DNA from: Christensenellaceae bacterium | Lineage (GTDB): Bacteria; Bacillota; Clostridia; Christensenellales; UBA1242 | Length of the DNA stretch: 32,822 nucleotides | Assembly (NCBI GenBank): GCA_031262595.1 | Contig: JAISHI010000004.1 | Location: 1 to 32,822, forward strand | Reading direction: 5' to 3' | Shown here: one piece after another, positions 6,997-22,473 of the stretch | How positions within the stretch are numbered: position 1 is the stretch's first letter | Layout of the letters: each line of letters opens with the position of its first letter | Program-made: the position numbers and the translations under genes | Notes under the pieces: model-generated | What the model was told of the DNA's origin: nothing | The model's database searches: none | Seen by the model: the letters and a program-made list of their open reading frames with translations, nothing else

Positions 6997-7028
6997 TTGA
7001 CAAATTGCACGGGGGGGGGGGCTATACT
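6997..7028 (+). promoter_or_regulatory. Poly-G promoter, copy 1 (likely phase-variable)
   Basis: TTGACA (6997-7002) and TATACT (7023-7028) are separated by 20 nt, of which 11 are consecutive G (7011-7021). Both boxes are strong, but the spacer is about 3 nt longer than the optimum of 17. Slippage in the G tract would change the spacing and so the promoter strength, as known for porA of Neisseria meningitidis. Confidence 0.75.
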
Positions 7029-7056
7029 TTAATTAACTAAAAAATTAGTTAATTAA
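7029..7056 (+). repeat. Perfect 12-bp palindrome at the transcription start of the secreted-protein gene
   Basis: TTAATTAACTAA (7029-7040), AAAA, TTAGTTAATTAA (7045-7056). It begins directly after the -10 box and ends 3 nt before the GGAG ribosome site. It could be an operator overlapping +1 or a hairpin in the leader. The second poly-G promoter lacks it. Confidence 0.75.
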
Positions 7057-7068
7057 AAAGGAGTTTAT

Positions 7069-7722
7069 ATGAAAAAGAAAAACGTTATTTTGGCAACTGC
7101 TGCTTCGGCTATGTTGGCGTTAGCGCCTATGAACGCGGACGCGCAACTTCCGCAAGGCTCGCAAACATCAACGGATAAACCAATAAATGAGTTTATTGAA
7201 AAGGGGTATGTAGAAATTGGTCCTAATAAATACGCGATTGTAAATTTTGTGGGAGAGGGAGAGTACTTTGTTGACGAATTGCACGACAAAGATAAGAATG
7301 GTCAAAACAGTGAAGGCGATCTTCGTTATACGGATCACTATAGTGTAGGCGATGTTGATGCTGGTTTGCATGCTTCTGCTGTCGCGCAATATTTCAAAGA
7401 CGGTGGGTGGAAGTACATTAAAGAGCCTGAAAAGTACACAGTATATAGTCTTGATACTAAAAAAGGTCAATTTATATATAAAATGTATGAAAAGTTAGCC
7501 GATTTCGGGCGTGGGCCGGTTGACCCTGAAAATACAAAACGAATCCTAATTGAGTGGGGCTTGGTTAAGCCTAAAGCCGCACAAACCCTACAAGCCGCTG
7601 AAACTACACTAGAAGCCGCCGCAGACACCATAGACACCACAGACACTATAGACGCCACAGAAGCCGTTGAGTCTGAAGCTAAAACTAAGCTTGAAGCTAT
7701 AGAGGAAATCTTAAAACAATAA
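7069..7722 (+). CDS. Secreted protein of unknown function, first gene of poly-G operon
   Basis: Seen: a clear signal peptide (KKK, then a hydrophobic Ala/Leu-rich core, with a likely cleavage after ADA near residue 25). The mature part is acidic and rich in Tyr, Asp and Gly up to about residue 165. The tail (about 165-217) is Ala/Thr-rich with repeated ETTLEAA, DTIDTTDTID and EAVES-like units, probably a flexible or helical stalk. No catalytic motif or anchor was recognised. The ORF is preceded by GGAG at good spacing and a leader of about 34 nt, unlike neighbouring host genes. Codon use (more GAT, AAT, AAA) also differs from host genes. The next gene follows after 9 nt with a GGAGG site, so the two are co-expressed. 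Function unknown. Confidence 0.7.
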   Translation: MKKKNVILATAASAMLALAPMNADAQLPQGSQTSTDKPINEFIEKGYVEIGPNKYAIVNFVGEGEYFVDELHDKDKNGQNSEGDLRYTDHYSVGDVDAGLHASAVAQYFKDGGWKYIKEPEKYTVYSLDTKKGQFIYKMYEKLADFGRGPVDPENTKRILIEWGLVKPKAAQTLQAAETTLEAAADTIDTTDTIDATEAVESEAKTKLEAIEEILKQ

Positions 7723-7731
7723 GGAGGTAAA

Positions 7732-8583
7732 ATGGCAAGAGATGCATACGGTGCGCTTATTAAGAAGTTTGAAAAAATAAACCCAAACCCTTCTCCGTTC
7801 GCTAGCGATAACTATCATTACGCAGCTTCTATTGTAGACGCGCTTGTTGGGGGTGGAGGACCTATTAATAGTGAAGGACTTACGGTTAACGAAGCTGAGA
7901 GGCTTCTTATAGAAGTACCAAGCGATCTATTTAAGATCCTTACCGATAACAAAAAAAGTTATCATAAGTATTTTGAATATTCCTTAAGAGCCGATGCTAA
8001 GGCCTTGCTCGAAAAGCTTAATAGCGCAAGTGTTGAACCCGAAACGCGAGAGGGCTCTTCACGCGCTTCACGTATTAAAAGTTCGCTTATTCGCCGTGCA
8101 GAAAACCTTAAAAATGATGTGCAGACTTTTTTTGAAGATAAGAAAGAAGCAAAATCCGCGGCGGAGGCCGAAGCGCTAGCCGAGCCAAAAAATAACTTTG
8201 CTAATTTTGATGCGCTTGTTAGGAAGTTTGAAGAAAATACTAGCCCTATAACTTCTCCTTATGACCATCCATACAACACACCTCCTTATGAATACGCAGA
8301 CCCTCATAGACACGCAAACGTCATTATTCGTATTCTTTTAAACGTATATAAGAGCGAGCATGTGGAGCAACTTATTAAAGAATCATCGAGTGATATTGCT
8401 GAAGCTGCTATAAAGAGTTGCCAAACATATAAAAATGGTAGCGTGGGGTATATACCATACACCATACACGAAGGTGTCCATCCATTGATTAAAAAAATTA
8501 AAGAGAAAGAGATAGAACAAACACAAGAAGAAAAAGCCGTCGAACCAGCCCAAGCAGAACCGCAACTCGAACCGACACGCTAA
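7732..8583 (+). CDS. Two-repeat protein of unknown function (paralog of the gene at 21586)
   Basis: Seen: 283 residues with two related halves. The first begins near residue 6 (ALIKKFEKINPNPSPF) and the second near 160 (ALVRKFEENTSPITSPY); both continue into Pro/Tyr-rich loops, a helix with ANxIIxxLL or ASIVDALV, and a further helical segment. Between them lies a basic, Arg/Lys-rich and Ala/Glu-rich linker (about 105-155). The tail is Gln/Glu/Pro-rich. There is no signal peptide or membrane helix. It is closely related to the protein at 21586-22419: the C-terminal 90 residues are almost the same, while the loops after NPNP and before the LLEK helix have diverged and carry insertions. Translation begins at a GGAGG site 9 nt after the secreted-protein gene. 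Function unknown; phase-variable expression is inferred from the promoter. Confidence 0.65.
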   Translation: MARDAYGALIKKFEKINPNPSPFASDNYHYAASIVDALVGGGGPINSEGLTVNEAERLLIEVPSDLFKILTDNKKSYHKYFEYSLRADAKALLEKLNSASVEPETREGSSRASRIKSSLIRRAENLKNDVQTFFEDKKEAKSAAEAEALAEPKNNFANFDALVRKFEENTSPITSPYDHPYNTPPYEYADPHRHANVIIRILLNVYKSEHVEQLIKESSSDIAEAAIKSCQTYKNGSVGYIPYTIHEGVHPLIKKIKEKEIEQTQEEKAVEPAQAEPQLEPTR

Positions 8584-8604
8584 ACCTAACGAACTTATAA
8601 ATAA

Positions 8605-8632
8605 AAATCCCGCGATAATCCGCGGGGTTTTT
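8605..8632 (+). terminator. Terminator of poly-G operon, copy 1
   Basis: CCCGCG (8609-8614), six-nt loop, CGCGGG (8621-8626), then T5. The same hairpin follows the paralog at 22448-22473. The T-tract overlaps the stop codon of the rnhA remnant. Confidence 0.75.
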
Positions 8633-8730
8633 AATGATTTTTATATTCCGCGACGGCGAGTTCGTCGCAACGGTTATTAAATTCATTGCTGGCGTGGCCT
8701 TTTACCCAAATAAAAATCGGCGGGAATATA
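8631..8730 (-). pseudogene. 3' remnant of rnhA carried by the duplication
   Basis: Read on the minus strand, this segment encodes the last ~30 residues of ribonuclease HI: FIWVKGHASNEFNN, then RCDELAVAEYKNH and a stop. It matches the intact rnhA at 22472-22912 almost residue for residue, with a few synonymous and non-synonymous changes. Upstream of about 8730 similarity ends abruptly, and no start or catalytic N-terminal half is present, so it cannot make RNase H. Its position directly behind the two-repeat gene mirrors the position of intact rnhA behind the paralog. Confidence 0.85.
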
Positions 8731-21491: not shown

Positions 21492-21510
21492 TTTGTGCAC
21501 AATGACGAAA
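21492..21510 (+). promoter_or_regulatory. Conserved 19-nt element upstream of poly-G promoter, copy 2
   Basis: TTTGTGCACAATGACGAAA, one mismatch to 6960-6978, again 18 nt before TTGACA. Confidence 0.5.
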
Positions 21511-21528: not shown

Positions 21529-21556
21529 TTGACAAATGCTCGGGGGGGGGTATTTT
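21529..21556 (+). promoter_or_regulatory. Poly-G promoter, copy 2 (likely phase-variable)
   Basis: TTGACA (21529-21534) and TATTTT (21551-21556) are 16 nt apart, of which nine are consecutive G (21542-21550). The spacing is close to the optimum, so this copy should be active in the assembled state. Only nine G are present against 11 in the other copy. Confidence 0.75.
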
Positions 21557-21585: not shown

Positions 21586-22419
21586 ATGGCAAGAGATGCA
21601 TACGACGCGCTTATTAAGAAGTTTAAAAAAATAAACCCAAACCCTTTTATATCTAATTATTATAACTATAGTTATGCGGATTCTATTGTTAACGCTCTTG
21701 TAGGGAATGAAAAAGAACTCACGGGCGACGAAGCCAAGAGGCTTTTCAAAGAAGCACCAGGGGAGCTCTTTAAAATTCTTACAGATAATAAAAAGGGTTA
21801 TCATGAGTATTTTAACTATTCTTTAAGAGCCGATGCTAAGGCATTGCTCGAAAAGATTAATAGCGCAAGTGTTGAACCTGAAACGCAAGAGGGTTCTTCG
21901 CGCGCTTCACGTATTAAAAATTCGCTTATTCGCCGTGCAAAAAATCTTAAAAATGATGTGCAGACTCTTTTTGAAAATAAGAAAGAAGCAAAATCCGCAG
22001 CTGAGGCTGAATGGGAAGCTGACTCAAAAAATAATTTTGCTAATTTTGATACGCTTGTTAAGAATTTTAAAGAAAATACTAGCCCTATAACTTCTCCTTA
22101 TAACCAGCCATACAACATAATCCCTTATGAATACCCAGACCCTTATGAACATGCAGACGTCATTATTCGTATTCTTTTAAACGCATATAAGAGCGAGCAT
22201 GTTGAGCAACTTATTAAAGAATCATCGAGTGATATTGCTGAAGCTGCTATAAAGAGTTGCCAAACATATAAAAATGGTAGCGTGGGGTATATACCAGGCA
22301 TCATATACAACGGCGTCTATCCGTTGATTAAAAAAATTAAAGAGAAAGAGATAGAACAAACGCAAGAAAACGCCGCCGAATCAGCCCAAGCCGAAAAGCA
22401 ACCAGAGCGGACTGTATAA
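21586..22419 (+). CDS. Two-repeat protein of unknown function (paralog of the gene at 7732)
   Basis: 277 residues, close relative of the protein at 7732-8583. Seen: the same two-half layout, with ALIKKFKKINPNPF near the N-terminus and TLVKNFKENTSPITSPY near 155, a basic linker and an Ala/Glu/Gln-rich tail. Conserved runs include SASVEPE, GSSRASRIK and, near-identical, KSEHVEQLIKESSSDIAEAA. The loop after NPF, the segment around residues 40-60 and the loop near YIPGIIYNGVY differ from the paralog. No secretion signal. It has its own poly-G promoter and an AAGAGG ribosome site; the secreted partner gene is absent from this copy. Codon use is unlike the host's. Function unknown. Confidence 0.65.
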   Translation: MARDAYDALIKKFKKINPNPFISNYYNYSYADSIVNALVGNEKELTGDEAKRLFKEAPGELFKILTDNKKGYHEYFNYSLRADAKALLEKINSASVEPETQEGSSRASRIKNSLIRRAKNLKNDVQTLFENKKEAKSAAEAEWEADSKNNFANFDTLVKNFKENTSPITSPYNQPYNIIPYEYPDPYEHADVIIRILLNAYKSEHVEQLIKESSSDIAEAAIKSCQTYKNGSVGYIPGIIYNGVYPLIKKIKEKEIEQTQENAAESAQAEKQPERTV

Positions 22420-22447
22420 GTCTAACCAAGCCATACTAATAAGTAAA

Positions 22448-22473
22448 TCCCGCGACAACCTCGCGGGATTTTT
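22448..22473 (+). terminator. Terminator of poly-G unit, copy 2
   Basis: TCCCGCG (22448-22454), loop of seven, CGCGGGA (22462-22468), then T5. The T-tract runs into the rnhA stop codon, the same layout as copy 1. Confidence 0.75.

Follow-up and report, generated by a model that had tools for sequence, protein, structure and literature searches.

Does an unbroken run of guanines that fills most of a near-consensus promoter's spacer mark a slippage switch, and does such a promoter stand alone in its genome? We examined this for a promoter in the 32,822-nucleotide stretch of Christensenellaceae DNA analysed here (the window). The preliminary description had placed near-consensus TTGACA and TATACT elements 20 nt apart with G11 in the spacer, and both its coordinates and its bases were found to be exact (Table 1). 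The spacer consists of 8 nt between the ‒35 hexamer and the tract (AATTGCAC), the 11 guanines, and a single C that separates them from the ‒10 hexamer (8+11+1=20 nt). Promoter homopolymers of the porA or Vlp type are characterized by at least about eight uninterrupted bases lying wholly within the spacer of a good promoter, and this tract has that anatomy. The pattern TTGACA-N15-22-TATAMT matched once in the window, compared with 0.04 matches expected from shuffled sequences. Runs of at least G7 were detected at two places in the whole window, each in the promoter-spacer position, a match count that was reached in 0 of 100 shuffles. An inverted repeat lies at the predicted 5′ end of the transcript; a 5′ transcript hairpin was considered as a feature of the promoter class and rejected, being strong at this locus but not general (p 0.25).

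Table 1. Positions of promoter elements, genes and associated features in the window
Feature	Position	Strand	Remark
Upstream box TTTGTGCATAATGACGAAA	6960..6978	+	common to rpoB, infA and 23S rRNA promoters of the genome
‒35 hexamer TTGACA	6997..7002	+	sequence
G11 tract, most of the 20-nt spacer, predicted slippage site	7011..7021	+	sequence
‒10 hexamer TATACT	7023..7028	+	sequence
Perfect 12-bp inverted repeat at predicted transcript 5′ end	7029..7056	+	local feature
217-aa orphan protein, signal-peptide-like N terminus	7069..7722	+	
283-aa orphan protein, second gene of unit, own Shine-Dalgarno	7732..8583	+	
Terminator-like hairpin ending unit 7069-8583	8602..8633	+	
Upstream box, second copy	21492..21510	+	
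‒35 hexamer TTGACA, second promoter	21529..21534	+	
G9 tract, spacer 16	21542..21550	+	
‒10-like hexamer TATTTT	21551..21556	+	
277-aa paralogue, 78% identical to 283-aa protein	21586..22419	+	
Terminator-like hairpin ATCCCGCG..CGCGGGAT, then T's	22447..22473	+	read from sequence

The operon that had been proposed downstream of the G11 promoter was borne out, its second gene starting 9 nt after the end of the first and being followed by a hairpin, as was the signal peptide claimed for one of its products, which was found at the N terminus of the first; the second carries no export signal. The further claim of a two-repeat protein is only weakly supported, as the halves of the 283-aa protein align over 31 residues only (E 0.013). 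Pfam searches of the proteins of both window units gave nothing significant, no relatives of these proteins were found in the 58 related genomes searched, and an AlphaFold model of the 283-aa protein, built from two sequences, was unusable (mean pLDDT 38). The second G-tract promoter in the window reads TTGACA-AATGCTC-G9-TATTTT, and its 16-nt spacer is one G below 17.

Just 5′ of both window promoters, and of a G-tract promoter on contig C17, we identified a shared 19-nt box, TTTGTGCANAATGACGAAA, with further copies in the genome at C4:19348, C6:30557, C28:3056 and C4:47998. The box was located upstream of rpoB-rpoC (identified from the 1246-aa product sequence and a neighbour), upstream of infA (IF-1, PF01176), approximately 500 nt upstream of a co-oriented 23S rRNA gene, and ahead of an ordinary promoter close to one end of contig C4. 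In this organism, TTTGTGCANAATGACGAAA probably serves in activation or growth-rate control, and its presence at the rpoB, infA and 23S rRNA promoters, which are among the most heavily used in the cell, suggests, by inference, very strong expression of the orphan genes at the right spacing.

Across the source genome (811 kb in 29 contigs, 83% complete), of which we examined the stretches surrounding the tracts and the upstream box, we detected 12 tracts of G8 or longer. Of these, 11 lie in a ‒35/‒10 spacer and one lies inside a lipoprotein gene, so that slippage at any of them would be expected to alter expression. The ‒35 element of the 11 promoters was an exact TTGACA on the same strand in ten cases and TTGACT in one, some of the ‒10 hexamers were far from consensus, and the reversed-pattern control gave 0 matches in this genome. 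Read by hand, the spacers were 16 nt (one promoter), 17 nt (five), 18 nt (three), 19 nt (one) and 20 nt (one). A paralogous promoter on contig C8 carries G9 with a spacer of 18 nt, compared with G11 and 20 nt for the window promoter. The genes driven in this genome include one for an amino-acid permease (PF13520, E 6e-39), the only protein downstream of these promoters that was recognized by Pfam. Two others encode signal-peptide proteins that are paralogues of each other, two encode lipoprotein- or signal-bearing orphans, one a 310-aa protein with a signal, one a small membrane-like protein, and four encode orphans that look soluble; several of the products look cytoplasmic. At C16:15196 and C19:7705, only 6–7 nt separate the end of the promoter from the start codon, which would make these mRNAs leaderless. 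The coding tract, a G10 at C6:47706 (L027 1707–1716), lies within a lipoprotein gene with InlB-like repeats, in which the frame that opens with a lipoprotein-like start ends just past the tract, and a frame of 971 codons continues in another register. This gene is predicted to be out of frame, and so translationally off, at the assembled length. When a phasome is defined by at least ten phase-variable loci per genome, the 11 promoters and the coding tract supply that number of loci with the right anatomy, the variability of each being predicted only.

To describe the distribution of this arrangement, the pattern TTGACA-N3-11-G8 was searched in 59 relatives, 35 of them from the same family. It was detected in 16 of the 59 at approximately 76 distinct sites, and in 14 of the 35 within the family. 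A stricter pattern that included TATAMT, applied to an even draw of 248 genomes from the order, matched 106 sites in 39 genomes, concentrated in a few families (f15, f20 and f32). The reversed control gave no matches alongside the recurrence in either the family or the order, and was 0 in every relative. Among the positive genomes, G147 of family f32 shares its coordinates with G296, the genome of Pumilibacter muris CLA-AA-M08. This isolate from mouse has been cultured, belongs to the same order, which GTDB calls Christensenellales, and carries seven G-tract sites. At least 120 stretches matched in the GTDB 220 species genomes and, among the matches listed, most belonged to metagenome-assembled genomes (MAGs) of gut Clostridia and Bacilli; lone matches in other lineages probably include chance ones. 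Twenty genomes taken from the matches listed were rescanned and gave 1 to 19 sites each, with a control of 0.

Several of these genomes showed features of their own. Streptobacillus notomytis AHL 370-1 (G299), which is fusobacterial and outside Firmicutes, carries 23 TTGACA-N-G8 sites. A Bacilli MAG (G077 C4:5204–24398, L244–L245) contains six genes in tandem, approximately 3.8 kb apart, each with its own G8–G10 promoter. Another genome (G012, L064–L074) contains eleven near-identical TTGACAAAAATGC-G8-10 promoters, often directly followed by an inverted repeat and mostly without a clear ORF, possibly representing a repeated element or a small RNA family. In the relatives, many tracts are only tens of bases away from the end of a contig (G001, G014, G018, G024 and G027), as if assemblies break there. 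Loss of mismatch repair was considered as a cause and rejected: MutS was found in 56 of the 59 genomes, including the source genome, and the G-tract-rich G053 is without MutS while the other such genomes keep it.

We then analysed the class of genes driven by these promoters, using the 193 G-tract promoters with a Shine-Dalgarno-bearing ORF within 170 nt. An export or membrane signal was predicted for 132 of the 193 driven genes (68%) and for 81 of 401 other ORFs (20%), corresponding to an odds ratio of 8.5 (p=4e-30), and a lipobox was detected in 49 of the 193 and 19 of the 401. The export call is a crude hydrophobicity rule that was applied alike to both sets, except that a higher length cut-off was used for the background ORFs. 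Judged by this heuristic predictor, the promoters control surface or secreted proteins, as expected of the porA or Vlp type. Altogether, poly-G promoters number at least eleven in the source genome and hundreds in its relatives, mostly ahead of secreted or membrane proteins.

Sigma-A-type RNA polymerase best tolerates spacers of 16–18 nt. We compared spacer lengths at 306 loci between G-tract promoters, collapsed for identical flanks, and ordinary promoters, defined as TTGACA paired with a TATAAT-like hexamer without a G6 run; the search patterns permit 10–25 nt and have no bias against 17. Ordinary promoters of the same loci clustered tightly at 17 nt (55 of 89 within 14–20 nt), whereas the G-tract promoters were spread over 15–20 nt and were under-represented at 17 (19 of 178; Fisher p=5e-18 versus ordinary promoters). 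The order survey, which shares some genomes with this set, showed the same shortage, with 23, 7, 25 and 27 promoters at 16, 17, 18 and 19 nt (p=6e-4 when 17 nt is taken as a fraction of 16–18 nt). The depletion holds for the class and not for the source genome alone, in which 5 of 11 spacers are 17 nt. We read this as the majority, assembled state often being one slip from the optimum, although biology and assembly consensus are not separated here. This contrast in spacer length provides a simple test for the poly-G promoter class that requires genomes only.

Next, we compared tract lengths between near-identical copies. In G001, paralogous promoters with flanks 97% and 95% identical carry G11 and G12. 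Other paralogous pairs within one genome differed likewise (G8 and G9 in G016, G8 and G10 in G063, G10 and G11 in G078), the tandem array of G077 includes G8, G9 and G10 promoters, and some paralogous pairs have equal numbers of G. Differences in length between otherwise near-identical copies were thus found between paralogues inside the genomes of relatives. They match the prediction of a fast-changing tract but do not amount to a measurement of switching; lengths were taken from assemblies and may be off by one base. Among the loci compared across genomes, no pair with both flanks conserved differed in length; one short flank match, between two Faecalibacterium MAGs, had equal tract lengths. 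The genus of the source genome consists of one genome, as does that of G027.

A phase-variable promoter, as the preliminary description had it, is the best-supported reading because of the genome-wide set, the paralogue length differences, the spacer distribution and the secreted and membrane enrichment; this support is comparative, and slippage itself was not seen. The presence of MutS, the 17-nt spacers of five of the eleven promoters and the cytoplasmic look of several driven genes in this genome weigh against it. We observed the anatomy, the recurrence in multiple copies, the length differences of near-identical copies, the atypical spacers and the enrichment in exported proteins, and we hold with considerable confidence that the G11 tract is a mutable spacer and one member of an independently switching phasome, for which slippage, the effect on transcription and the benefit are inferred. 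In the proposed mechanism, the tract would serve as the mutable spacer of a sigma-70-type (sigma-A) promoter, replication slippage (slipped-strand mispairing) would add or remove guanines and shift the distance between the ‒35 and ‒10 elements, and the altered distance would alter transcription of the 7069–8583 unit. The assembled 20-nt state would be weak or off, while the 16–18 nt states (G7–G9) would be strong, aided by the upstream box shared with the 23S rRNA, rpoB and infA promoters. The earlier proposal of a probably weak 20-nt state, from which loss of 2–4 G would restore 16–18 nt, fits the 17-nt peak that ordinary promoters show at the same loci, which is indirect support without transcript data. 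The 11 or more promoters and the one coding-frame tract would form a phasome whose members switch independently, and a clonal population could thereby display many combinations of surface and other proteins, with an inferred benefit of bet-hedging against phage, host immunity or protists.

A binary output is less certain. In the porA promoter of Neisseria meningitidis, a poly-G tract also lies between the ‒35 and ‒10 elements, and 11G gives a high level of surface protein, 10G an approximately 2-fold lower level and 9G an approximately 13-fold lower level (PMC3639595). Since this model case yields graded levels, a strict ON/OFF switch may, by analogy, be the wrong description, and we are evenly divided on whether the tract slips with a graded output, as a porA-like rheostat that leaves some transcript at 20 nt. 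The class spacers are spread smoothly over 15–20 nt, and near-consensus hexamers and an upstream box could carry a poor spacer. Nothing direct speaks against a graded output, but the 20-nt spacer is 3 nt from the observed optimum, and the genome has at least one tract that switches a coding frame, a switch of the binary kind.

The tract could instead be an element of fixed length, either a regulator site or a long spacer compensated by a DNA-twisting regulator of the MerR-like kind. The near-exclusive occurrence of G on the coding strand (approximately 76 G8 sites compared with only nine C8 sites, in six genomes) would fit such an element, as slippage alone needs no such bias. However, tract length (G8 to G18) and position within the spacer vary, the G-run contains no dyad such as the operator expected in the 19–20-nt spacer of a MerR-type promoter, the merR-like gene expected beside such a promoter is absent next to the unit, and the driven genes are unrelated between genomes; we consider a fixed element very unlikely. 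It is similarly improbable, in our estimation, that the spacer drifts freely and G-runs grow in it without effect. In favour of neutral growth, no other part of a promoter is under as little constraint as the spacer, but no tract of G8 or longer occurs at a neutral position elsewhere in the genome, the bias towards exported products is strong, and the spacers avoid the optimum rather than centre on it. A sequencing or assembly artefact, such as two-colour poly-G, is scarcely credible: some relatives' tracts do lie at contig ends with junk beyond (L078, L113), but unique sequence flanks the tracts on either side, an intact gene lies behind each, the reversed control is 0, and the same position recurs in genomes from many laboratories, including isolates.

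The slippage promoter can also be placed among known systems. The SSR tracts of Campylobacter, Helicobacter and Neisseria lie largely within coding frames. The phasomes of these genera likewise comprise at least ten repeat-tract loci per genome, mostly surface-related (PMC11868660), whereas here promoter spacers hold 11 of the 12 tracts, and most of the hosts are gut commensals without cultures. The porA promoter has the same architecture, tract lengths of G9–G11 and a surface protein as its product (PMC3639595), but is a single gene of a Gram-negative pathogen, in contrast to about a dozen promoters per genome in many Clostridia genera. The Vlp system of Mycoplasma hyorhinis has a poly-A tract in every vlp promoter (Citti and Wise 1995, cited in PMC10502178). 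It resembles the present set in that all genes of a surface lipoprotein set have a homopolymer in their promoters and switch at the transcript level; it differs in using adenine in one paralogous lipoprotein family, rather than guanine ahead of scattered, mostly unrelated genes. The pilus switch of Bifidobacterium breve is also slippage-based and in a gut commensal, but the portion of that report available to us concerns two pilus clusters and no genome-wide promoter set (PMC9187656). The device is known singly (porA) and as a poly-A lipoprotein family (Vlp). In the literature searched, which left most subscription journals and preprints out of scope, sets of poly-G promoters at multiple loci were not described for uncultured Clostridia, and no paper on phase variation in Christensenellales was found; within these limits, poly-G promoter phasomes that extend across an order of such bacteria appear to be undescribed.

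Beyond this locus, it is somewhat probable that several families of the order of Pumilibacter muris, made up of uncultured and mostly gut-associated Clostridia, run a genome-wide poly-G transcriptional phasome, as do, independently, other lineages such as Streptobacillus. Most assembled copies in it would be 1–2 G off the optimum, low or off, and one slip from strong. A 2025 review treats as a major question the fact that multi-locus phase-variable genomes seem confined to pathogens. Many uncultured gut Clostridia, including some with reduced genomes of approximately 1 Mb, appear to carry about a dozen promoters each that are phase-variable by prediction. This bears on that question, and the sites in the cultured mouse isolate make it directly testable. 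These findings point to random switching of multiple genes, on/off or high/low, in bacteria of which most are gut commensals, and would imply a hidden heterogeneity of surface-protein expression in gut bacteria that is missed by surveys of invertible DNA.
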